Source: Flavobacteriales bacterium
GTDB taxonomy: Bacteria > Bacteroidota > Bacteroidia > CAIKAF01
NCBI GenBank assembly: GCA_025451295.1
Contig: JANWKQ010000085.1
Location: 1-42,292 of the forward strand
DNA length: 42,292 nt
Reading direction: 5' to 3'
The position numbers were made by a program, and so were the translations under genes. Under the pieces are notes generated by a model. The model did not search any database. It had not been told where the DNA came from and worked only from the letters and a program-made list of their open reading frames with translations. This document shows, piece after piece, positions 18,038 to 33,844 of the stretch (the stretch's first letter is position 1; the number at the start of each line of letters is the position of its first letter).

Positions 18038-18865
18038 ATGATATACTTTTCTAAAAATATCCAATTACTCCGTAAACGCAAAAAGCGTTCACAGGAAGAA
18101 ATGGCCGGGGTCTTAGGTTTAAAAAGATCCACTTTAAGTGCTTATGAACTGGGCACTGTTGAACCAAGTCTCGAAACGCTGACCCGTTTCTCCAGATTTT
18201 TTAAAATTACCATGGATAAGCTGGTCACCCTTGATCTGGCATCCATATCCGAATTTTACCTCAGTGACCTTGAAAAAGGGTTTGATACAGATATTACGGG
18301 GAAAAAATTACGTATCCTGGCGACCACGATCGATAGTGAGAATAATGATAATGTAGAGTTGGTGCCCATGAAAGCCAAGGCTGGTTATACCGCAGGCTAT
18401 GCTGATCCGGAATATATCAGGGTATTACCAACCTTCCAATTACCCTTTTTAAGCAAGAGTAAAAAATATCGGGCTTTTCAAATCAGTGGTGATTCAATGC
18501 CACCAGTGGCTGATGGGAGCTATGTAACCGGGGAATACGTACAAAACTGGGAAAGCATTAAAAATGGTCAGCCTTATATAATTGTCACCCGTGATGAAGG
18601 TGTGGTTTTTAAGATCATATATAATAAGATCGTGGAAACCCAAACGCTTACCTTATGCAGCACAAACCCCATGTATGCTCCGTATGATGTTCATATTACG
18701 GAGATCATCGAGGTATGGAAATTTGTAAATTATCTCAGTGAAAACCTGGAAATACAGGAAGACAGTGAAAAAGATCTTACCAAAGCCTTACAAAATCTTC
18801 AGAAGGATATACTGCATATGCAAAAGAAGATTGAGAATTTTCCGGGTCAGAATAAGCCTGAATAA
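18038..18865 (+). CDS. XRE-family transcriptional regulator with C-terminal S24 (LexA/CI-like) peptidase domain
   Basis: N-terminal HTH IQLLRKRKKRSQEEMAGVLGLKRSTLSAYELGTVEPSLETL; S24 dyad context FQISGDSMPPVADGSYV and EGVVFKII. Confidence 0.9.
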   Translation: MIYFSKNIQLLRKRKKRSQEEMAGVLGLKRSTLSAYELGTVEPSLETLTRFSRFFKITMDKLVTLDLASISEFYLSDLEKGFDTDITGKKLRILATTIDSENNDNVELVPMKAKAGYTAGYADPEYIRVLPTFQLPFLSKSKKYRAFQISGDSMPPVADGSYVTGEYVQNWESIKNGQPYIIVTRDEGVVFKIIYNKIVETQTLTLCSTNPMYAPYDVHITEIIEVWKFVNYLSENLEIQEDSEKDLTKALQNLQKDILHMQKKIENFPGQNKPE

Positions 18866-18900: not shown

Positions 18901-19332
18901 ATGGAACTTCAACCTACAGATCTAAGCGGTAAAATCATCAAGGCATTCTACAAAGTGTATAATGAGCTTGGTTTTGGGTTTTCGGAGAAAGTCTATGAAA
19001 ATGCCCTCATCATGGAATTAAGATCCATGAACCTGGTTTGTGTAAAACAAAAACCAGTTAAGGTATTCTACAATGGACAAATCGTAGGCGAATACTTCGC
19101 TGATGTTATAGTGAATGAAGCCATCGTTTTGGAGTTGACAGCAACTGATGCAATCGTAGAAGAATATGAATATCAATTGATCAATCAATTAAAAGCATCA
19201 GAACTTGAAATGGGGCTGCTTCTGAATTTCGGCCAAACACCCCAGTTTAAAAGGAAGGTCTTTACCAACGACCGAAAGAATATTCAACCATTCAAGTTCC
19301 CTGCTCCGCTACCAGTAGTAAAATCCGCGTAA
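18901..19332 (+). CDS. GxxExxY protein (PDDEXK-like nuclease fold family)
   Basis: 143 aa; IIKAFYKVYNELGFGFSEKVYENALIMEL (GFSEKVY), QKPVKVFYNGQIVGEYFADVIV, LNFGQTPQFKRKVF. Confidence 0.88.
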   Translation: MELQPTDLSGKIIKAFYKVYNELGFGFSEKVYENALIMELRSMNLVCVKQKPVKVFYNGQIVGEYFADVIVNEAIVLELTATDAIVEEYEYQLINQLKASELEMGLLLNFGQTPQFKRKVFTNDRKNIQPFKFPAPLPVVKSA

Positions 19333-20802: not shown

Positions 20803-22812
20803 ATGGATATTCTTATTTTTCAATCCGCGATCCTTTTCTCATTATTGGTGTTTTTCGTTAACATCAGGCTAAAATATTTTTTGGTCTTACTCCCTGTATT
20901 GGCCATTATTGGTGTATCCTCTTATTGGGCAATTGATGTGCTCATTTCTAATCAAACCAAAACCCATTTACTTTCTTTCAATATATCAGAACAAATCTTT
21001 GGGTTTTGGAGCCAGACACCCCACCTGGTTATCGATCAGATCTCAGCTTTGTTCATCCTGATGATCAATGTTGTTTCACTGGGTGCATTTATATATGCCT
21101 ATGGCTATCTGAAAAAATATCTGGCCTTAAAAAGTCCCTTGGGGATGAGTATGCATTATTTTTCTTTTTTCCTTGTTTACATTTCCATGTTGTTGATCAC
21201 GATGATGCGGGAAGGCTTCATGTTCCTGTTCGTATGGGAATTGATGACTTTGTCTGCCTATCTCATGGTTGCCTTTCACGGCGAAAAGGAAAATATTAGA
21301 AAAGTGGCTATCAATTATCTGATGCAAATGCACCTTGGTTTTCTCTTCCTTTTAGCCGGGTTTTTGATCGTTAATAAAGAAACGGGGATTTGGGGATTTG
21401 AAGCCCTCGAAGTTTATTTTGCGAGTCATGATAACTATCTTGTATTCCTACTGTTCTTTGTTGGGTTTGGGGTAAAAGCCGGGCTCATTCCTTTCCATAC
21501 CTGGTTACCACATGCTCACCCGGCTGCCCCTGCGTATGTTTCGGCCACCATGAGCGGGGTCATCGTTAAAATGGGAGTATATGGGGTATTGAGGGTGCTT
21601 ACCCATGTTCAATCACAGTTATTCGAAATCGGATTAACCATGCTGATTGTTTCTTTGGTAACGATTTTGTTCTCCATTTCGATGGCCGTCTTTCAGCGGG
21701 ATTTAAAAAAACTACTCGCCTATTCTACCATCGAGAATATTGGTATTATTTTTCTCGGGATCTCACTTTCCATATTGGGCCGGGCTTATAACGTTCAGGC
21801 TTTAGCTGTATTAGCAATGATGGGCACTTTATTCCATGTATTAAATCATTCATTGTATAAATCCATGTTATTTATGCTTTGCGGAAATATTGAAAAGATC
21901 ACCAATACAAGAAACATCAACGAATTGGGAGGATTGGCAAAAAAGATGCCTTTTACAACTGCATTCTTCTTACTTGGCAGTCTGGCTTTATGCGCTCTTC
22001 CTCCATTTAATGGTTTTGTGGGTGAATTTTTGATATATAAAGGTATATACCGTGCAATTGCTGATGGGGGCTTTTTCATTTCAATTGTTGCCATTGTGTC
22101 GATCATTTTTATGGCACTTTCCGGTGGGATCTGTATATATGCCATGACCAAAGCCTTTGGCCTTTCATTTTTGGGTAGCAGCCGAAAACCATTTCCAGAA
22201 CCTTTGCATGAACCGTCAAAATCCATGTTTTTTCCTGCATTCCTGAATACAATATTGATACTTGCGATTGGACTTGCCCCTGTACTTATTCTTCCACAAC
22301 TCCAGGAAACCCTTAGCGCATTTAAGTTTATTCCCAAAAGCAGTCAGGTTTATCAAGTGCAAACAGCCGTCTTCCAGAAATTTGGATTACTCAGTCTTAT
22401 CCTCATTACGCTGTTTTTCCTGGTTTATTTGGTCAGATATCTTCAACAAAAAAGAGTACAGGTAATGCATGGACCTACCTGGGGCTGTGGTTATGAAGCC
22501 GGCGATGCCAAACATCAATATACTTCCACTTCCTATTCTAAGTCGATGCAAAATATTGTAAGTCCATTGCTGCAGGAGACAAACACATATCAGTCGTTCG
22601 AGGAAGAAGAAATTTTTCCAGGTGAAAGAAAATATCAAACCACTGTAAAAGATCGTTTGGAGGAGTCTGTCATACTAAGGCCTATCAACTACCTATTAAA
22701 TAGAATACCAAAATTGGGGCTGGCACAAACTGGAAGGATACAACATTATCTTATTTACCCAATGGCTTTTCTTTTGCTTATTGCCCTTTTATCCGCGTTT
22801 GGGATCATTTAA
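20803..22812 (+). CDS. HyfB-like proton-translocating antiporter-type membrane subunit (copy 1)
   Basis: 669 aa; FLFVWELMTLSAYLM (TM5 Glu), GFGVKAGLIPFHTWLPHAHPAAPAYVSATMSGVIVKMG, HyfB C-terminal WGCGYEAGDAKHQYTSTSYSKSMQNIVSP. Confidence 0.9.
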   Translation: MDILIFQSAILFSLLVFFVNIRLKYFLVLLPVLAIIGVSSYWAIDVLISNQTKTHLLSFNISEQIFGFWSQTPHLVIDQISALFILMINVVSLGAFIYAYGYLKKYLALKSPLGMSMHYFSFFLVYISMLLITMMREGFMFLFVWELMTLSAYLMVAFHGEKENIRKVAINYLMQMHLGFLFLLAGFLIVNKETGIWGFEALEVYFASHDNYLVFLLFFVGFGVKAGLIPFHTWLPHAHPAAPAYVSATMSGVIVKMGVYGVLRVLTHVQSQLFEIGLTMLIVSLVTILFSISMAVFQRDLKKLLAYSTIENIGIIFLGISLSILGRAYNVQALAVLAMMGTLFHVLNHSLYKSMLFMLCGNIEKITNTRNINELGGLAKKMPFTTAFFLLGSLALCALPPFNGFVGEFLIYKGIYRAIADGGFFISIVAIVSIIFMALSGGICIYAMTKAFGLSFLGSSRKPFPEPLHEPSKSMFFPAFLNTILILAIGLAPVLILPQLQETLSAFKFIPKSSQVYQVQTAVFQKFGLLSLILITLFFLVYLVRYLQQKRVQVMHGPTWGCGYEAGDAKHQYTSTSYSKSMQNIVSPLLQETNTYQSFEEEEIFPGERKYQTTVKDRLEESVILRPINYLLNRIPKLGLAQTGRIQHYLIYPMAFLLLIALLSAFGII

Positions 22813-23050
22813 AATTAAGATCCAAATAAATTTCCTGAAGTGTATTCATCAAAGCATCACCAATTGATGGATGTGGCCATATTCAGATTAATTTTTTTTT
22901 TAGAATTTAACCATTCAACAGATTCAATGTATCAATAATCAGCCTCTCCCATAATTTACTCAATGAAAAGGGGTCAATGATAAAAGGTGTATACAGTGTT
23001 TGTTTTATAATTTACCTTTGTGTTGCAATTTTATCACAGCGATAGAACAA

Positions 23051-23398
23051 ATGAAAAAGGCAGTTTCAATATTCATACTTTGTTGCATCTTCATCGGCAG
23101 CTTTTATGCCCAGAAGGCTCATTCAGGATTATGGATACAACATGCCAGTATTCAAAGTACAGTGCCAGGTTCAGGGGATCCTAACTGTAATAAAAGTCCA
23201 ATCTTTACCGAAATTTCATCCGAAAAGGAAGACTCGGAATCCAAAATGACGATTGAAGCGTTTTGTACCTCCGCAGGACATTTCCATCTCCGTTCAGAAT
23301 TTAAACAAAGTTCAAATATTCTAAATGAATATTCCGATGATCACCTGATCCGGAATTCCATTCCGCTGTTTATCAAAAACAGAAATATCCTTATCTGA
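23051..23398 (+). CDS. small secreted protein of unknown function between two hyfB paralogs
   Basis: ATG at 23051 gives MKKAVSIFILCCIFIGSFYAQ signal peptide followed by a ~95-aa mature region with no motif I recognise. Confidence 0.45.
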   Translation: MKKAVSIFILCCIFIGSFYAQKAHSGLWIQHASIQSTVPGSGDPNCNKSPIFTEISSEKEDSESKMTIEAFCTSAGHFHLRSEFKQSSNILNEYSDDHLIRNSIPLFIKNRNILI

Positions 23399-23474: not shown

Positions 23475-25484
23475 ATGGATATCATACTGTTTCAAACAGC
23501 TATTGCCATATCATTACTGGTATTCTTCGCACCGATAAGGATCAAATATTTTGCGATCTTACTTCCGATGCTGGCGATTATTGGAATCACTTCGATATGG
23601 GCGATAGATGTAATCGTTACTCATAAGATAAAGATAGCCTACCTGTCTTTTAATCTGTCAGAAAATATTTTTGGATTTTGGAGTGCAGTTCCAAAGATAA
23701 AGATTGATCAGATTTCTGCACTCTTCATTCTTATGATCAATGTAATAAGCATTGGAAGTTTGATATACGCTTACGGATATCTTAAGAAATATCTATCCAG
23801 CAAAAGTGCACTTGGAATATCAATGCACTATTTTTCATTCTTTTTATTGTACATCAGTCTTCTCCTGCTCACTATGATCAGAGATGGATTTCTCTTCCTT
23901 TTTCTCTGGGAATTGATGTCACTTTCTTCTTTTGTATTGATTGCGTTTGATGGTGAAAAAGCTCAGGTACGGGCCGTGGCCATTAATTATTTGATTCAAA
24001 TGCATATTGGCTTCATGCTTCTGCTGGCCGGATTTTTAATTGCGAACAAAGCAACGGGCATTTGGGGATTTGATGCTTTGCCTATTTATTTTAGCTCACA
24101 TCCCAACACACCTCTTTTCTTCATTTTCTTTCTTGGGTTCGCCGTCAAAGCCGGTTTAATGCCATTTCATACATGGGCTCCAAAAGCTGATCCCATTGCA
24201 CCACCACATGTATCAGCACTTATGAGTGGGGTATTGGTAAAAATTGGTTGTCTTGGTATCATGAGAGTGGCGATGAGTTTGCAGAACAGTTTTTCTGAAA
24301 TAGCAAGTATTCTTCTTGCCTTCTCATTAATTACCATCGTATTCTCCATATCAATGTCCGTATATGAAAAAGATCTGAGAAAACTACTGGCTTATTCGTC
24401 GATCGAAAATGTGGGTGTCATTTGTTTAGGACTTTCATTGTCTATTTTCGGAACAGCTTATAAAATTCCTGCGTTAGCGGTTCTCGGAATACTGGGTTCC
24501 ATCTTTCATGTTTTTAGCCATTCTTTATACAAGTCAACTCTTTTCCTTTTAACCGGTAATGTTGAACGAATTTCAGGCACAAGGAATATCAATGAGTTGG
24601 GAGGACTCGCAAAAAAAATGCCGCTTACCGCATTTTTCTTTTTGTTGAGCGGTTTATCACTCTGTGCACTTCCTCCTTTTAATGGATTTGTTTCAGAATT
24701 TCTAATGTATGAAGGAATATTCAAGGCCATCTCAACCGGTGATTTCTATATTTCAATCATCTGCATTCTTGTAGTAATTGTATTGGCTATTTCAGGAGGA
24801 CTTTCCATTTTCGCGATGACCAAAGCTTTTGGCTTGTCGTTTTTGGGGAGCCAGCGTAAAGAATATACATCTGATATCATTGATCCACCAAAAAGTATGC
24901 TCGTACCTGCTGTGATCAACTCGATACTTATGTTGTTGCTGGGACTCACCCCATTTCTCATTTTTCCAGAAATATATGAAGCCATCGCGGCTTTTAAATA
25001 TCTCCCGGCCGACAATAGTCATTACTTTCAACATGTGGATATTTATCAAAAATTCGGATTATTAAGTGGTATACTTGTTGCATTATCAATGATCGTATTT
25101 GCCATTCGACGAATTCAACAAAAACGAATTCAGGTCAATGTGGGTCCCACCTGGGGTTGTGGATATTCCGGAGGAACGGCCAAACACCAATACACTTCCT
25201 TTTCTTTTTCAGTCCCACTTAAGCGAATTTTAAGTCCAATACTTTCGCAAAAAAATAATTTTATAAAATATCCAGAAGAAGAGATTTTTCCGGGAGAACG
25301 GAAATTCGATGTGGACTCGGTCGATCGATTGGAAAAATATTCAATATCAATCCCGATCAAATTTCTTTTAAAGATTATTCCATTTGTTGGTTTAGCACAA
25401 ACGGGCAGGATACAGCATTATCTGATCTACCCTGTTGGATTTCTTATATTAATTGTAGTGATGACAGCCTTTAATTTTATATAA
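23475..25484 (+). CDS. HyfB-like proton-translocating antiporter-type membrane subunit (copy 2)
   Basis: 669 aa, colinear with copy 1; FLFLWELMSLSSFVL, GFAVKAGLMPFHTWAPKADPIAPPHVSALMSGVLVKIG, WGCGYSGGTAKHQYTSFSFS. Confidence 0.9.
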   Translation: MDIILFQTAIAISLLVFFAPIRIKYFAILLPMLAIIGITSIWAIDVIVTHKIKIAYLSFNLSENIFGFWSAVPKIKIDQISALFILMINVISIGSLIYAYGYLKKYLSSKSALGISMHYFSFFLLYISLLLLTMIRDGFLFLFLWELMSLSSFVLIAFDGEKAQVRAVAINYLIQMHIGFMLLLAGFLIANKATGIWGFDALPIYFSSHPNTPLFFIFFLGFAVKAGLMPFHTWAPKADPIAPPHVSALMSGVLVKIGCLGIMRVAMSLQNSFSEIASILLAFSLITIVFSISMSVYEKDLRKLLAYSSIENVGVICLGLSLSIFGTAYKIPALAVLGILGSIFHVFSHSLYKSTLFLLTGNVERISGTRNINELGGLAKKMPLTAFFFLLSGLSLCALPPFNGFVSEFLMYEGIFKAISTGDFYISIICILVVIVLAISGGLSIFAMTKAFGLSFLGSQRKEYTSDIIDPPKSMLVPAVINSILMLLLGLTPFLIFPEIYEAIAAFKYLPADNSHYFQHVDIYQKFGLLSGILVALSMIVFAIRRIQQKRIQVNVGPTWGCGYSGGTAKHQYTSFSFSVPLKRILSPILSQKNNFIKYPEEEIFPGERKFDVDSVDRLEKYSISIPIKFLLKIIPFVGLAQTGRIQHYLIYPVGFLILIVVMTAFNFI

Positions 25485-25485
25485 T

Positions 25486-26391
25486 ATGATAGCTTTCCTG
25501 TTAATATTAATCTGCGCCCTACTCTATCCAGGTACGATCGATAAGACGAAGGCCATTTTATCTGGGCGAAAGGGTCCTAAGATCCATCAGTTCATTTTTG
25601 ATGCATGGAGGCTTTTCAAAAAAGGGAGTATATACAGTGATAAATCAAGTTTTGTTTTTCAGATATCCGCCACCATCAATTTTGTTTGTTTAATTACAGC
25701 CATCCTTCTCATTCCATTTGCGGGTGAACCGTCTTTATTTTCCTTCGATGGTGATTTTGTATTTATGATCTATTTGCTTGGGCTCGGAAGATTTATGTCC
25801 GTGGTGGCTGCATTGGACGTATCAAGTGGTTTTGAAGGAATGGGAGCAAACAGAGAAGTGCTCTATGCGGCTTTGCTCGAGCCCGCTTTCTTATTACTTA
25901 TGGGTACACTCTGTATTTTCACCGGCTATACCAATTTCAACGATATTTTTACGGCACTTTACGCCGACCAATACCTGGCATCCGTTGTTATTATTATTTC
26001 CTCTATTATTTTGTTTTTATTCATACTCGTGGAGAACAGCAGGATACCTGCAGATGATCCCAATACCCATCTTGAATTAACCATGGTTCATGAAGTAATG
26101 ATACTAGACCACAGTGGTTTTGACCTGGGTCTCATCAAACTCACCGCGGCATTAAAATTTGCAGTATTTGGTTCGCTTATTTGTAATCTGGTAATTCCAA
26201 GTCATTTTCCAATTGGAATAAAGATCCTTCTCTTTATGATTTTTCAGTTTGCACTGGCAGTAGCTATAGGATTTATAGAATCATTTAAACCCAGAAATAA
26301 AATGGCCAGAAATCCCCAGTATATTATCAGTATTTCCGCCATTGCCCTCGTATTATATTGCGTGATGATCATTATAAAAAATAAAATGTAA
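25486..26391 (+). CDS. HyfC/NuoH-like membrane subunit
   Basis: 301 aa; VENSRIPADDPNTHLELTMVHEVMILDHSGFDL. Confidence 0.9.
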   Translation: MIAFLLILICALLYPGTIDKTKAILSGRKGPKIHQFIFDAWRLFKKGSIYSDKSSFVFQISATINFVCLITAILLIPFAGEPSLFSFDGDFVFMIYLLGLGRFMSVVAALDVSSGFEGMGANREVLYAALLEPAFLLLMGTLCIFTGYTNFNDIFTALYADQYLASVVIIISSIILFLFILVENSRIPADDPNTHLELTMVHEVMILDHSGFDLGLIKLTAALKFAVFGSLICNLVIPSHFPIGIKILLFMIFQFALAVAIGFIESFKPRNKMARNPQYIISISAIALVLYCVMIIIKNKM

Positions 26392-26392
26392 A

Positions 26393-27031
26393 ATGGAGTA
26401 TTTAATAAATCTAATCGTCGTCGCATATATTGTATCCCTGATTTATCTTGCAAAGGTAGAGTTGCTTAAAACATATGTGAAAATTCTTTTGGTACAGGGA
26501 CTCATCATCTTCTTCGTGGCACTGGCCGAATTAAAAGAAGTGGATATTCTTCACCTCATGTTTGTATTGGTTGAAACCCTTGTTTTCAAGGCGATATTCG
26601 TCCCGTTATTCATGCAGCGGGTAATCAAAAGATCCAAGCAAACCAAAAATAGTGGAATGTATATCAAACCTTACATTTCTGTGATACTGGCTACAGTTAT
26701 GGTGGCAATTTCCTTTGCATTGGTTGAATCAATACATGATGAACATCTGGAGATCAAATATTTTACAGCCGCGATTTCATCAATCATGATTGGTTTGTAT
26801 GTAGGGATAAACCATCGTGATATCATCACGCATCTTATCTCCTATATGATCATAGAGAATGGGATTTTCCTCATCGCTCTGGCCCTCGGTGGAGAAATGC
26901 CTATTCTGGTGAACAGTGCCATCCTGCTGGATATCTTCTCAACAATACTCATCATGGGAATGTTCTTTAATAAGATCAAAAACTATTTCAATTCAACCGA
27001 CGAAACGGAACTAACCAAACTAAAAGACTAG
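26393..27031 (+). CDS. HyfE/NuoK-like membrane subunit
   Basis: 212 aa, multi-helix; MFVLVETLVFKAIFVPLFM and ISYMIIENGIFLIALALGGEMPILVNSAILLDIF. Confidence 0.87.
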   Translation: MEYLINLIVVAYIVSLIYLAKVELLKTYVKILLVQGLIIFFVALAELKEVDILHLMFVLVETLVFKAIFVPLFMQRVIKRSKQTKNSGMYIKPYISVILATVMVAISFALVESIHDEHLEIKYFTAAISSIMIGLYVGINHRDIITHLISYMIIENGIFLIALALGGEMPILVNSAILLDIFSTILIMGMFFNKIKNYFNSTDETELTKLKD

Positions 27032-27033
27032 AA

Positions 27034-28461
27034 ATGATCATATCAGTTTTTCTCATATCGAGTATTGTTTTTGCCCTGTTGGCATACATTATTAAAAGGC
27101 CAATTCTCAGCCATTTCGTTACTTTTTTGTATTCCGTTTTTCTCTGCATTTTCGTTGGCTATGAATATCTTCACATCAATCAAACCCAGGCTACGTATTT
27201 CAAACCTGATGCAATTGGAATTATATTCCTGATTGTTCAGGCCATCGTAGATTTGATTTCCATCATTCACTATTATAATTATACAAAGTCCAGAGGTGAT
27301 CATCCCAAAAGTATCTCAGTCCATAATATGGGGCGCATCATTTTCAATATGTCGATTGCCGGAGTTTTGCTGGCCAATCACTTTGGTGTGCTTTGGGTAT
27401 TTATGGAAATAACCACATTGGCTCTATCGTTACTTATTTATCATGACAGAACTACAACTGCTTTAGAAGGTACCTGGAAATATGTTTTTATATGTTCGAT
27501 TGGTATTGCTATCGCTTTTGCCGGTGTATTATTCTTAAGTATAGGGGCCAACGAGGTAGGCATCAAGGATCTTTTTTACGATCAGGTGAAGGAAAAAGTA
27601 ACGCTGATCAATCCACTCTGGTTAAAAGCCTGTTTTATTTTTATCCTCACGGGATTTAGTGTCAAGATGGGTCTGGTCCCTTTATTTAATGTCGACATCG
27701 ACGCAAAGGATGTTTCTCCATCACCGGTTGGAGCTAAACTTTCCAGTGTAGTAATGAATTCAGGGTTTGTTGCCATTTTTAGATTTTATGATGCGCTTTC
27801 AGGTTCTTCCATCTTTACCTGGATGAATCATGTACTACTTATTGTTGGAACCATGTCACTGCTGTTCGTGGTGGCCTATTCATTAAAAGTGAACAATGTA
27901 AAAAGATTGCTTGCGTATTCAAGCATGGAACATGCAGCACTGGTTATTATTGCCTTTGCCTGTGGAGGACTTGGTTATTTTATCGCGATCCTTCATCTCA
28001 TTATCCACTCGTTAGTAAAGTCGACCTTATTTTTCCAGTTCGCACAGATGCACAGGATTTTTAAAGACAAGAACTATTTAAACATGGGTGCCTATCTCAA
28101 GATCAATCCGCTGGGAGCTTTAGTTCTTTTTCTGAGTTATATCTCAATTATCGGATTTCCTCCCTCGTGTATGTTCATTACGGAGATACTTATTTTCAGA
28201 AGTATCATCGACTCTCAATATGCCTGGCTGGCGATTGTTATTGGTTTTTTTATGCTGTTCATTATCTATGGAATGTCAGTTCGGATCTTTCATATACTCA
28301 TGGGAAAACCAGGAGTAAAAGAATTCGACGAAAAAGGCAAAAACAATCTTGAATCTCTTATCCAGTTGGTTGTTATTTCAGCCGTATTTTATCTGGGAAT
28401 TGTTAAACCTGATGTTGTGGTCAACTATATCGCCATGGCAGTATCCACTTTACCTCATTGA
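27034..28461 (+). CDS. HyfF/NuoN-like antiporter-type membrane subunit
   Basis: 475 aa; LWVFMEITTLALSLLIY, ILTGFSVKMGLVPLF, VKRLLAYSSMEHAALVIIAFACGG, HSLVKSTLFF. Confidence 0.88.
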   Translation: MIISVFLISSIVFALLAYIIKRPILSHFVTFLYSVFLCIFVGYEYLHINQTQATYFKPDAIGIIFLIVQAIVDLISIIHYYNYTKSRGDHPKSISVHNMGRIIFNMSIAGVLLANHFGVLWVFMEITTLALSLLIYHDRTTTALEGTWKYVFICSIGIAIAFAGVLFLSIGANEVGIKDLFYDQVKEKVTLINPLWLKACFIFILTGFSVKMGLVPLFNVDIDAKDVSPSPVGAKLSSVVMNSGFVAIFRFYDALSGSSIFTWMNHVLLIVGTMSLLFVVAYSLKVNNVKRLLAYSSMEHAALVIIAFACGGLGYFIAILHLIIHSLVKSTLFFQFAQMHRIFKDKNYLNMGAYLKINPLGALVLFLSYISIIGFPPSCMFITEILIFRSIIDSQYAWLAIVIGFFMLFIIYGMSVRIFHILMGKPGVKEFDEKGKNNLESLIQLVVISAVFYLGIVKPDVVVNYIAMAVSTLPH

Positions 28462-28463
28462 TC

Positions 28464-29981
28464 ATGGAAAAATTATTTGAAACAAAAAATAACCTCCCTG
28501 TTAGGATAGCTGATATTCCGGTTGTTCCTTACAATAAGTTTTTTGAAGTAATCACTTTTTTATTACGGTCACAGGATTATCATATTCTAACCTATCTGGC
28601 TTATCCCACTGATCAGGGCCTGAGTTTTGTTTGCGCCATAGCAGATGATCAGAATAAATCCATTTCCCTTATTTCACATCTTATACCGAATGGTGCTCCC
28701 TTGAAAGTGTATTCTATGATGCCAAAGTATGATGTATTCCATTCGTGTGAAAGAGAGATCCACGAAAAATACGGAGTAGTGTTCGAGGACAATCATTTTC
28801 TCAAACCGATCCGTTATTCTCATGACAGGATTAACAAAGAATCGAAGATTACTGATTACCCTTTTTATAAGATCGAAAGCGATGAGTTGCATGAAGTGGG
28901 AGTTGGGCCCATCCATGCCGGGATTATCGAACCTGGACACTTCAGGTTCTTATGTGCCGGAGAAAGAGTACTCCATCTGGAAGTACAGTTGGGTTGGCAA
29001 CATCGTGGAATTGAAACATTGTTTCTACAAAAGAAAAAATTGTTACAACGTGCTGTGCTGGCCGAAAATATTGCTGGTGATACAGCTGTTGGACATACCC
29101 TCGCCTACTCTCAGGCCATCGAATCACTCGCCGGTTTGAAGATCCGTGAAAAATTAAACTACGAAAGGGTTATTGCACTCGAAATTGAGCGGATTGGTAT
29201 GCATATTTTTGATCTTTCAAATCTATGCACAGGTGCCGCTTACCAGTTGGGTAATGCTTCACTGGGAGTTTTAAGGACCCCTACTATTAATTATTTACAA
29301 ACCTGGTGTGGAAATCGTTTTGCAAAAGGACTCATCAGACCTGGAGGAACTCACTATCCTTTTACACGTGAATTGCAGGAAAAGCTCCTCACCTACCTTG
29401 ATTCGTTTGAGGAAAAATATGCAGTGATTTCCGACAAGCTTTTAAATCTTTCAGGAATTCAACTTCGTTTTCAGGATATAGGAACATTGACCAGAAAACA
29501 GGTTTATATGATAGGTGGTGTGGGAACTACAGCCAAAATGGCTGGCCTAAAAAGAGATACCAGATGGAGTCATCCATTTGCTGGCTATCATGAGTTGCAC
29601 CATGAACCGGTCATTTTCGATGCCGGAGATATTTATGCAAGGATCCAGGTACGTCATTATGAAATTTTACAAAGCATTAAATATTTACGCCGAATCGCCG
29701 AGATCATGAATTTTCAAAACCAGGTACCATCACCTATCACGGATGAAAATATCCGATTGGCCAAAAGTTGCCTAACGGTTTCCATCACGGAAGGTTGGAG
29801 AGGAGAAATTGTACATACAGCTATTACTGATCAGGAAGGAAATATCTGTTGTTATAAGATCAAAGATCCCTCCCTGCATAATTGGTGGGCATTGGCACTT
29901 TCATTGAGAGATCGAGAAATCAGTGATTTCCCTATCAATAATAAAAGTTATAATCTTTCATACTGCGGACACGATCTATAA
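28464..29981 (+). CDS. HyfG-like fused NuoC/NuoD large subunit lacking NiFe-binding cysteines
   Basis: HSCEREIHEKYGVVFEDNHFLKPIRYSHD (NuoC part); GPIHAGIIEPGHFRF, HLEVQLGWQHRGIE, LAENIAGDTAVGHTLAYSQAIE (NuoD/hydrogenase large-subunit part). Confidence 0.9.
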   Translation: MEKLFETKNNLPVRIADIPVVPYNKFFEVITFLLRSQDYHILTYLAYPTDQGLSFVCAIADDQNKSISLISHLIPNGAPLKVYSMMPKYDVFHSCEREIHEKYGVVFEDNHFLKPIRYSHDRINKESKITDYPFYKIESDELHEVGVGPIHAGIIEPGHFRFLCAGERVLHLEVQLGWQHRGIETLFLQKKKLLQRAVLAENIAGDTAVGHTLAYSQAIESLAGLKIREKLNYERVIALEIERIGMHIFDLSNLCTGAAYQLGNASLGVLRTPTINYLQTWCGNRFAKGLIRPGGTHYPFTRELQEKLLTYLDSFEEKYAVISDKLLNLSGIQLRFQDIGTLTRKQVYMIGGVGTTAKMAGLKRDTRWSHPFAGYHELHHEPVIFDAGDIYARIQVRHYEILQSIKYLRRIAEIMNFQNQVPSPITDENIRLAKSCLTVSITEGWRGEIVHTAITDQEGNICCYKIKDPSLHNWWALALSLRDREISDFPINNKSYNLSYCGHDL

Positions 29982-29990
29982 AACAACCTT

Positions 29991-30749
29991 ATGCTGAAAG
30001 AAATAAAAATATTAAGAAATCATGGCAAGCAATTTATTGCGGATGTAACGCAGCCGGTTTTACCATCCACTTTCAAAGGGAGACCCATCATTTCGGAAGA
30101 GGAAGTAGATAATGCCGAACTCATCAGCCTTTGTCCTACGGACGCGATCAATGACAACAACGGCATCGAAATTGATCTCGGTAAATGTATTTTTTGTGGG
30201 GAATGTATGTTTCGTTTTCCGGAAAAAGTAAAATGGGTGAATGATTATAAGACTGCTACCAATAAAAGAGAATCACTCATTATTAAGGAAGGGAATGAGC
30301 AACTGGTCCAAATCGATCAATCAATTATCAGCAAACAAATTAAATCGTTGTTTGGAAGATCTCTTCGTCTAAGAGAAGTAAGTGCTGCCGGGGATAACAG
30401 TAGTGAACTGGAATTAAATGCAACGGTGAATCCAAATTTTGATCTTGCCAGATTCGGGATAGACTGGGTTGCCTCTCCACGTCATGCAGATGGACTTGTA
30501 CTCACCGGCCCGATCAGCGATAATATGGCCGAGCCATTGCAAATTTGCTATGATGCCATACCAGACCCAAAGATCCTGATCCTGGTAGGGACGGATGCCA
30601 TCAGTGGGGGAATATTTGCCGGAAGTCCGGCTCTTAACAGAAAATTTCTCGAAGGGAAACATGTGGATCTGTTTGTACCTGGCAATCCTGTTCATCCACT
30701 CACTTTTGTAAACGGGATACTTGAATTAACAAGAAAAATTAAATCGTAA
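29991..30749 (+). CDS. fusion of 4Fe-4S ferredoxin-like domain and NuoB/HyfI-like small subunit lacking proximal cluster cysteines
   Basis: LCPTDAI ... KCIFCGECMFRFPEKVKWV then FDLARFGIDWVASPRHADGLVLTGPISDNMAEPLQICYDAIPDPKILILVGTDAISGGIFAGS. Confidence 0.9.
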   Translation: MLKEIKILRNHGKQFIADVTQPVLPSTFKGRPIISEEEVDNAELISLCPTDAINDNNGIEIDLGKCIFCGECMFRFPEKVKWVNDYKTATNKRESLIIKEGNEQLVQIDQSIISKQIKSLFGRSLRLREVSAAGDNSSELELNATVNPNFDLARFGIDWVASPRHADGLVLTGPISDNMAEPLQICYDAIPDPKILILVGTDAISGGIFAGSPALNRKFLEGKHVDLFVPGNPVHPLTFVNGILELTRKIKS

Positions 30750-30770: not shown

Positions 30771-32474
30771 ATGAAAACTCAAATGAAAATTCCGGCAGAC
30801 GGATTAAAAGGACTCAAAGAAAATTGGTCAAAAGACCTGGTCTCAGGTCTCATTGTTTCTCTATTGGCATTGCCCCTGAGCTTAGGAATTGCACAAGCTT
30901 CGGACTTCCCACCAATCATGGGGGTTTTAACCGCCATCATCGGTGGAACCATTGTTGCCCTTCTTGCGGGTTCACAATTAACCATTAAAGGTCCCGCAGC
31001 CGGGCTTATTGTTATTGTTGCAGGGGCAGTAAGTGAGTTTGGAGGAGGGACAACCGGTTGGTCAATGGCATTAGGAGCTATTGTGGTCGCCGCACTTTTA
31101 CAAATTCTCTTAGGGTTTCTAAAGTTGGGAAAACTGGTAGATTATTTTCCTCATACTGTAGTTCATGGAATGTTGGGAGCCATTGGTTTCATCATTTTAT
31201 CCAAACAATTACATCTTTTAATGGGTGTAAACCCAGTCCATACTGAAGGAATCATGAAAGGAAAACCTCTGGTGGAACCACTCGAATTATTCAGAGCATT
31301 GCCTGATTCCTTTCGATCGCTCCAGGAAAACCAGGAACACAAGGAAATATTTCTCATCGGAATCATTTGTCTCCTTATCGTGTTTGGATGGACAGTTATT
31401 TCCGACAAGTTTCTTAAAAAAATCCCTGCTCCTTTAGCTGTATTGGCGCTATCAATACCACTTGGTGCACTGTTAGGCTTTGGTAAAATTGATGGCGGTT
31501 TGTTAAAGGTCGACAACATTTTTAAGGCGGTCGATTTCAATGTAAGCTTTGACGGATTTTCAAAACCAGGCGTGTTTATTAAATATGTTCTCATGTTTGC
31601 GTTGATCGGCAGTGTTGAATCCTTGTTAACTGTAAAGGCCATTGATATTCTTGATCCATTTAAGCGAAAAGCGAAAGCGAATAAGGATCTGGTGGCTATC
31701 GGTGTTGGAAATGCTGTTTCAGGTGTGCTGGGAGGTTTACCGATGATCTCAGAGGTGGCACGGAGCAGTGCAAATGTAAACAGTGGAGCAAAAACCCGGT
31801 GGGCAAACTTTTTCCATGGTACTTTTCTCATACTTTTTGTCGTTATCCTTGTGCCAGTAATCGAGTTGATCCCTAAAGTGGCGCTTGCGGCAATTCTTAT
31901 TGGAGTTGGTTATAAGCTTGCCTCGGTAAAAGAGTTTGTTCATATTTTCAAAGTCGGATGGTGGCAATTACTTGTGATGGTATCAACTACGATTGCCATT
32001 CTTCTTACCGACCTTTTAATTGGTGTAGGTATTGGTCTTGCTATCAAATTTATTATCCACTACATGGGCGGACTTCCGTTTAGATATACTTTTAAACCGG
32101 ATATGGAATTTTTACAGGATAAGGATCGAACCATCGTCTATATAAGAAGCGGGGCTGTTGTAACCAATTTGCCTGGTATTATGAAAAAACTGGAAACTCT
32201 GCCAAAAGGTCAAACGATTTTCTTCGATCTTTCCGAATGTTTCCTGGTGGATCATACATCGATGGAAACCTTCAAAGCCTTTCAAAGGGAATATATAGAA
32301 GATGGTGGTCGCTGTGAGTTTACAGGAATGGATCGTCATAAACATATTTCAAAACACGAATTCAGTACCATGTTCCTTCCAAAAAACATAAGGGCAGACA
32401 TTAAAAGTCGCAGAACAGGAGCCGTAACTGAACGAAGAAAAGATGATCCGAATCACGAACACAGAATTAATTAA
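30771..32474 (+). CDS. SulP family inorganic anion transporter with C-terminal STAS domain
   Basis: 567 aa; KDLVSGLIVSLLALPLSLGIAQASDFPPIMGVLTAIIGG, AGSQLTIKGPAAGLIVIV; STAS region IFFDLSECFLVDHTSMETF. Confidence 0.93.
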   Translation: MKTQMKIPADGLKGLKENWSKDLVSGLIVSLLALPLSLGIAQASDFPPIMGVLTAIIGGTIVALLAGSQLTIKGPAAGLIVIVAGAVSEFGGGTTGWSMALGAIVVAALLQILLGFLKLGKLVDYFPHTVVHGMLGAIGFIILSKQLHLLMGVNPVHTEGIMKGKPLVEPLELFRALPDSFRSLQENQEHKEIFLIGIICLLIVFGWTVISDKFLKKIPAPLAVLALSIPLGALLGFGKIDGGLLKVDNIFKAVDFNVSFDGFSKPGVFIKYVLMFALIGSVESLLTVKAIDILDPFKRKAKANKDLVAIGVGNAVSGVLGGLPMISEVARSSANVNSGAKTRWANFFHGTFLILFVVILVPVIELIPKVALAAILIGVGYKLASVKEFVHIFKVGWWQLLVMVSTTIAILLTDLLIGVGIGLAIKFIIHYMGGLPFRYTFKPDMEFLQDKDRTIVYIRSGAVVTNLPGIMKKLETLPKGQTIFFDLSECFLVDHTSMETFKAFQREYIEDGGRCEFTGMDRHKHISKHEFSTMFLPKNIRADIKSRRTGAVTERRKDDPNHEHRIN

Positions 32475-32479
32475 ATGCG

Positions 32480-33844
32480 ATGAAACAAAAGATCATTTTG
32501 TTGGTTGCATGCATATGTTTTGTGGTTATCAACTCTTTTTCTCAAAATGCAGACGAGGATGAAAAACGTGATCTGAAATTTAACCTGAACAAAACAGGGA
32601 CCAAATATTTTAAATTTACCATCACCAACCAGGTTTGGGTCAGGTTTAATGAAAGCAATCCCGGTACTATTGTGAACAGTCTGCCAAAGCCACAAACTTT
32701 TGACGTTGGTTTGAGAAGATTGAGATTCCAGATTATTGGACAAATACACGATAAATTTTTTATCTATGTTCAGTTCGGGATTAATAATTTTACTCCACTC
32801 TCTGCCCGAAAGTTCGGCGATTTTTTTCACGATGCAATTGTGGAGTACACGCCTGTAAAGATCATGAGTAAAAAAGAAGGAAAAGAAAACCTTACCATGT
32901 TCAGTCTTTCGTTGGGTACAGGTTTAGCGGCATGGACAGGTCATAGCAGATTTTCGAGTCCGGGTGTAGCTTCCTTTTTAGGAATTGATGCCCCGCTTTA
33001 CCAGCAAAGTACGAATGATGCAACCGACCAGTTTTTTAGAAAGTTTGCGGTCTATATAAAAGGTAAAGTATGGAAGTTTGATTACCGTTTTATTCTGGCT
33101 GATCCGTTTACGATTACTTCGAGTAATTTATTTGATCCATTTATTTCACAATATGCCAACTTCACACCTATTGGCAGATCGATCCAACCCAGCGGATATG
33201 TAAGTCTTCAGTTCTTCGATCAGGAAAGCAATCAAACGCCATACAACAATGGCACCTATCACGGAACAAAAAGAATATTGAACATTGGGTCTGGATTTCA
33301 GTATCAAAAAGATGCCATGTGGTATACAAGAACCGGAACGGATACCACTTTCTCCGATATGTTCCTCGTAGGAGCTGATGTATTTTATGATACGCATCTG
33401 GGGAAAAACAAGGACTGGGCGTTTTCTTTATATGCTGCCTACAACTATTATAATTTCGGACCGGGGTATTTGCGTCAGGTAGGTGTGATGAATCCAGGTC
33501 AATCAGTTGCGGCAGGAACTGCCACCATCAATGGTACAGGAAATGCCTTTCCCATGATTGGCACCGGTCATGTAGGATACTTACAAACAGGTTTGATGTT
33601 ACCCAAAAAATGGTTTGGTAAAGGAACATTTACAATAATGCCGTATTTTTCTTCACAGGTCGCTATGTGGGAAAGGTTAAATGATCCAATGGTTACTTTT
33701 GATACTGGGTTGAATTTTTTATTTGACAGCCATCGTTATAAAATGACGATCAATTATCAGAACAGACCGGTTTTTGACAATACTAATTTCCTACAGGTAC
33801 AAAGGAAAAGTATGGTTACCTTCCAGTTTCAAATTGCTATTTAA
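32480..33844 (+). CDS. outer-membrane beta-barrel porin-like protein
   Basis: 454 aa; signal peptide; DVGLRRLRFQIIGQIHDKFFIYVQFGINNF; alternating barrel-like pattern ending VTFQFQIAI. Confidence 0.75.
   Translation: MKQKIILLVACICFVVINSFSQNADEDEKRDLKFNLNKTGTKYFKFTITNQVWVRFNESNPGTIVNSLPKPQTFDVGLRRLRFQIIGQIHDKFFIYVQFGINNFTPLSARKFGDFFHDAIVEYTPVKIMSKKEGKENLTMFSLSLGTGLAAWTGHSRFSSPGVASFLGIDAPLYQQSTNDATDQFFRKFAVYIKGKVWKFDYRFILADPFTITSSNLFDPFISQYANFTPIGRSIQPSGYVSLQFFDQESNQTPYNNGTYHGTKRILNIGSGFQYQKDAMWYTRTGTDTTFSDMFLVGADVFYDTHLGKNKDWAFSLYAAYNYYNFGPGYLRQVGVMNPGQSVAAGTATINGTGNAFPMIGTGHVGYLQTGLMLPKKWFGKGTFTIMPYFSSQVAMWERLNDPMVTFDTGLNFLFDSHRYKMTINYQNRPVFDNTNFLQVQRKSMVTFQFQIAI

Follow-up and report, generated by a model that had tools for sequence, protein, structure and literature searches.

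The window, that is, the whole stretch of 42,292 nucleotides analysed from a Flavobacteriales bacterium, encodes a machine of the complex I superfamily whose small subunit, here called Fd-HyfI, has no ligand set for the N2 cluster and keeps the ligands of a single [4Fe-4S] cluster in a fused ferredoxin domain. The complex is a relative of the Ehr (energy-converting hydrogenase-related) type, and the same N2-less state recurs in other Bacteroidota with the same residues in place of the lost cysteines. We give about an even chance to the reading that this N2-less Ehr branch runs without the N2 electron route, probably in ion-coupled transport or antiport, and that its hydrophilic arm is redox silent.

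Former N2 site and ferredoxin domain of Fd-HyfI

Fd-HyfI has 252 amino acids, and Pfam assigns residues 139-246 to Oxidored_q6 and, weakly, 59-73 to Fer4; the nearest proteins of solved structure are MbhJ from the Pyrococcus Mbh complex (6cfw_J) and HycG from the formate hydrogenlyase of E. coli (7z0s_G). The reading frame 29991-30749, its motifs and its NuoB-like identity had been proposed in an initial annotation made from the DNA letters, and these matches bear them out. In the alignment to MbhJ and HycG, the ligands of the proximal cluster, named N2 in complex I and G1 in HycG, lie in C-x-x-C, GAC and PGC, and the corresponding segments of Fd-HyfI read D135-N-S-S138, GTD202 and PGN232; the tandem-cysteine N2 site of NuoB is absent. 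The initial annotation was right in substance about the replacement at the three motifs but misplaced one of them: the counterpart of CNGC is AGDNSSE (residues 133-139), and ELNATVNPNFD, to which it had been assigned, lies a few residues downstream. As for the fold, the AlphaFold2 model of Fd-HyfI has a mean pLDDT of 89 and a pTM of 0.87, and its C-terminal domain superposes on MbhJ with a TM score of 0.82 and an rmsd of 1.7 Å; as had been anticipated, the modelled small-subunit fold is intact despite the loss of the N2 ligands.

Homologs were taken from samples of Bacteroidota genomes, and 55 were compared, 20 N2-less and 35 with N2 (hereafter N2-bearing). D135, D202 and N232 are invariant in all 20 N2-less sequences, cysteine occupies the four sites in 35 of 35 N2-bearing relatives, and neither set holds an intermediate at positions 135, 202 and 232, which are the only ones among 252 that are fixed but different between the two groups. 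At position 138, 12 of the 20 N2-less sequences retain Cys; the other eight, the window's among them, have Ser, Ala or Asn. A different cofactor at this site, namely a mono- or dinuclear metal on D135, D202 and N232 (plus Cys138 where present) through which electrons or chemistry would still pass, is an unlikely explanation; the invariance of the three residues speaks for it, as do the cysteine at 138 in the 12 sequences and the adjoining ferredoxin cluster, which is always kept, but eight sequences have no thiolate left, and no extra conserved His or Cys sets the N2-less group apart. In these eight, the lack of any thiolate ligand makes an ordinary Fe-S cluster very improbable.

Regarding the ferredoxin domain, C48 together with C66, C69 and C72 makes up one complete [4Fe-4S] ligand set, and the partner set has gone, with F76 in place of CP, so that both calls made from the letters hold. 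Judged by how two-cluster ferredoxins are usually arranged, the retained cluster is presumably the one adjoining N2 (N6b in complex I). Its ligands are present in 55 of 55 homologs, for which reason some redox or sensing role is favoured and a purely redox-free machine is disfavoured. The partner cluster is absent from all 20 N2-less sequences, and 13 of the 35 N2-bearing relatives have also lost it or have a damaged site; its loss is therefore not unique to the N2-less branch, and a strict family-wide co-loss of N2 and the partner cluster, for which a taxonomic survey had been suggested, is ruled out. One N2-bearing relative of Fd-HyfI (L076, in genome G213), 52% identical to it, has both ferredoxin clusters, and no other Hyf gene was recognised nearby.

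A sensing role, which the initial annotation raised as a possibility beside a docking site, could mean that the lone cluster responds to redox state or oxygen and, by changing the arm's conformation, gates the membrane transporter. This we consider quite unlikely: no cofactor site other than the lone cluster is conserved throughout the 55 homologs, and both its partner and N2 are lost in all 20 N2-less sequences, but a structural role explains the conservation of the cluster equally well.

The gene run, its large subunit and its neighbours

Fd-HyfI is the seventh gene of a run with the order HyfB1, HyfB2, HyfC, HyfE, HyfF, HyfG, Fd-HyfI, which is followed by a SulP gene and a porin-like gene (Table 1).

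Table 1. Coordinates in the window of the Hyf-type genes, the ligand codons of Fd-HyfI and the genes that follow
Feature	Position	Strand	Matches and remarks
HyfB/HycC-type antiporter-like subunit, copy 1	20803..22812	+	Pfam Proton_antipo_M 5e-54; HycC 7z0s_C 4e-54
HyfB-type antiporter-like subunit, copy 2	23475..25484	+	Pfam 7e-50
HyfC/HycD/NuoH-type subunit	25486..26391	+	Pfam NADHdh 4e-27; HycD 7z0s_D 2e-19
HyfE-type subunit	26393..27031	+	NCBIfam hydrogenase 4 membrane subunit 6e-18, under cut-off
HyfF-type antiporter-like subunit	27034..28461	+	Pfam 9e-37; NCBIfam hydrogenase 4 subunit F 1e-56, under cut-off
HyfG/HycE-type large subunit (30 kDa and 49 kDa parts)	28464..29981	+	MbhL 6cfw_L 2e-38; HycE 1e-32
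Fd-HyfI, single-[4Fe-4S] ferredoxin fused to HycG/NuoB-type small subunit without N2 ligands	29991..30749	+	
Codons of C48, C66, C69 and C72, retained ferredoxin cluster ligands	30132..30206	+	
Former N2 ligand codons	30393..30686	+	GAT 30393 (D135), AGT 30402 (S138), GAT 30594 (D202), AAT 30684 (N232)
SulP-family anion transporter, 21 bp 3' of Fd-HyfI	30771..32474	+	Pfam Sulfate_transp 1e-59
Outer-membrane porin-like protein, after SulP	32480..33844	+	No Pfam family; porin label a guess from sequence character

The two HyfB copies are identical at 408 of 669 residues, and the genus mate of the window's organism (G001) has one copy only. The best NCBIfam match of copy 1 is hydrogenase 4 subunit B, under the cut-off; its transmembrane charges E146, K225, K256, K353 and E408 are conserved, and so are the acids of E-channel type in HyfC (E183, D190, D191, E197, E203, D208 and D213). 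N2-less and N2-bearing complexes alike conserve the pump residues of HyfB, HyfC and HyfF and, in the large subunit, the HRGxE motif. Between the two HyfB copies, at 23000-23398, lies a small open reading frame with a signal-peptide-like start and no Pfam family, and a similar one precedes the single HyfB of the genus mate. Upstream of the run, at 18901-19332, is a gene for a small protein of the PD-(D/E)XK nuclease superfamily (PF13366), which adjoins a repressor-like HTH/S24-peptidase gene (18038-18865); both are conserved in the genus mate.

In the large subunit of the window, IAGDTAVGH replaces the CGxC segment and the C-terminus has no Cys pair. The large-subunit alignment has the NiFe cysteines missing from all members of the family (IAGDTxxGH and variants), which makes the complex an Ehr-type relative; the HRGxE motif is kept, and H161, H182, R183, E186, D208 and H213 are conserved. 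A hydrogenase was rejected because the NiFe ligands are lacking (the two CxxC motifs are missing), and no NiFe hydrogenase large subunit was found elsewhere in the window's genome. Nor is this the organism's only complex I, as a separate, conventional nuo operon is present on another contig. The Hyf operon has no NADH-oxidising module, and no extra redox partner or electron-input subunit was found in it or in the neighbours examined. Two further candidates were set aside: a DAB inorganic-carbon pump, since no DabA (PF10070) was found in the genome, whose assembly is about 78% complete, and an Mrp antiporter, since hydrophilic arm subunits are encoded at 28464-30749.

As for SulP, this gene and the porin-like gene lie directly 3' of the small-subunit gene in the window, in the genus mate and in four N2-bearing sister loci, where the porin-like gene has a counterpart of 34-38% identity after SulP. 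In other N2-bearing operons SulP is upstream, adjoining an HTH-PTS EIIA gene, and in a third arrangement beside Hyf genes a SulP-STAS-PTS_EIIA fusion (L089:6939-9137) separates the large-subunit gene of an Ehr operon from its small-subunit gene. The N2-bearing Ehr operons of the other Bacteroidota class (L080-L087, L091, L122, L123) consistently have, upstream of HyfB, a gene encoding an HTH and PTS EIIA type 2 protein of about 223 aa, likely a regulator. Only two SulP genes were found in the window's genome; the second (G000:C254, L125) encodes 735 aa, with a beta-carbonic anhydrase match in the same open reading frame. In Acidithiobacillus caldus, a Hyf cluster adjoins carbonic anhydrase (PMC3826726).

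A possible mechanism without the N2 route

Because three of the four N2 cysteines are replaced by fixed Asp, Asp and Asn, the usual electron transfer is probably blocked in the N2-less machine, with the ion-pumping parts intact; a broken electron route had been foreseen in the initial annotation, and the replaced ligands agree with it. Without N2, the lone ferredoxin cluster would be too distant from the pocket for ordinary turnover, and with so long a gap the hydrophilic arm would not be a working electron wire. Tunnelling estimates, which use distances from general knowledge, are about 10^4-10^7 per second at 9-14 Å, about 5-80 per second at 18-20 Å and less than 1 at 22 Å.

The intermediate rates could sustain a slow quinone reductase, in which electrons tunnel directly from the lone cluster to a quinone in the pocket and N2 is dispensable; the pocket residues and the HRGxE motif, both retained, also suit it. 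Even so, we regard it as distinctly improbable, given that the clusters of formate hydrogenlyase are spaced by less than 14 Å throughout (PMC9474812), that the R121M variant of Yarrowia complex I, in which the HRGxE arginine is changed, N2 is lost and the rest is native-like, has zero quinone reductase activity (PMC8042128), and that the operon encodes no subunit for electron input.

In the preferred reading, that of ion-coupled transport beside a redox-silent hydrophilic arm, the membrane subunits (one or two HyfB, HyfC, HyfE and HyfF) would together act as an ion-coupled antiporter or secondary transporter, and the hydrophilic arm would serve as a structural or regulatory cap, with the lone ferredoxin cluster either structural or a sensor of redox state or oxygen. 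The two Asp would match an oxidised [4Fe-4S](Cys)4 centre in formal charge (-2), a putative charge mimicry; the pair may also fix the coupling loops via a putative salt bridge to the arginine of HRGxE (R183), which in complex I is 3.7 Å from N2 (PMC8042128). For the window's genus, the adjoining SulP gene points to an anion, bicarbonate or sulfate, as the probable partner substrate, and transport of this anion by SulP may be energised by the complex or coupled to it. Among the N2-less loci, only the two of this genus have a SulP neighbour; no SulP adjoins the other operons over the stretches read, and the link to an anion may therefore be confined to this lineage. A broader proposal, that of a widespread complex I-superfamily machine that gave up redox chemistry at N2, mimics the cluster charge with Asp, Asp and Asn and couples its membrane arm to ion or anion transport, is possible but more tentative.

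Spread, ancestry and relation to known complexes

The N2-less form was found in 20 genomes of 15 family-level groups, in two Bacteroidota classes, and none of its 20 genes has an internal stop. An in-frame stop within the small-subunit match occurs in two N2-bearing relatives, L108 (G905) and G893:C42:32719-33477. A comparison of Fd-HyfI from the window with that of the genus mate gives a dN of 0.156 and a saturated dS, much like the other subunits, and the gene is under purifying selection. Changes from Cys to Asp and from Cys to Asn take two base changes each, which argues for a selected replacement and not for simple decay. A pseudogene, a sequencing error or an ordinary Ehr small subunit decaying under relaxed constraint is excluded for practical purposes, because 19 other genomes share the loss with invariant replacements and intact reading frames, and the Cys-bearing relatives, whose existence the initial annotation would have taken as a sign of such an error, do exist (the 35 above) but form a separate set. 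The change of the N2 ligands, on these comparisons, is neither error nor decay.

Regarding ancestry, a tree of HyfC, HyfE, HyfF and HyfG places the N2-less loci within the Cys-bearing family and needs two changes of state, with a single N2-less clade not rejected (AU p 0.15); the small-subunit tree, built with the ligand columns left out, needs one change, with a moderate branch support of 79. The trees are thus consistent with one loss of N2 inside a Cys-bearing family. The nearest N2-bearing branch (family code f91; L079, L116-L118) keeps N2 and two ferredoxin clusters.

The main unsolved problem of complex I is how electron transfer at N2 drives distant ion pumping, and a natural, conserved N2-less family in which arm, pocket and pump residues are retained is a test of the role of the arm without electrons; it could show whether the pump can run as an antiporter and in what way the coupling loops depend on the charge at the N2 position. 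On the broader proposal above, the complex would amount to a naturally occurring complex I that has its full hydrophilic arm and no electron wire to the pocket. The family also extends the Ehr complexes past the loss of NiFe.

From its sequence, the N2-less complex is filed as an Ehr variant and not as a wholly separate kind. No N2-less member is reported in the literature searched, whose coverage stops short of Marreiros et al. 2013, reportedly the original Ehr paper. In common with Ehr, the complex has a Hyf/Mbh-type subunit set, antiporter-like subunits and a large subunit without NiFe ligands; unlike Ehr as described in the available portions of two papers, which set these complexes apart by missing NiFe ligands and name that loss only (PMC6349859, PMC10284858), the window's small subunit has no N2-type ligands and carries a single-cluster ferredoxin. 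The proximal or N2-type cluster, present in the 35 N2-bearing relatives, is not stated in those portions as a defining Ehr feature.

With formate hydrogenlyase/Hyf (HycG, HycF, HycE) and Mbh (MbhJ, MbhL), the complex shares the small-subunit fold and the membrane subunits; those systems have NiFe and the proximal cluster, and HycF has two ferredoxin clusters, whereas the window complex has no NiFe, no proximal cluster and just one of the two ferredoxin clusters, and its ferredoxin is fused to the small subunit. Respiratory complex I (NuoB, NuoI, NuoD) has a homologous arm and the HRGxE motif, but the window complex lacks its tandem-cysteine N2 site and its NADH module. Finally, Mrp has no hydrophilic arm, unlike the window complex, and DabA was not found in the window's genome; Mrp and DabAB/MpsAB nevertheless have the same antiporter-like subunits, are ion-driven and non-redox, and are possible functional analogues of the N2-less complex.
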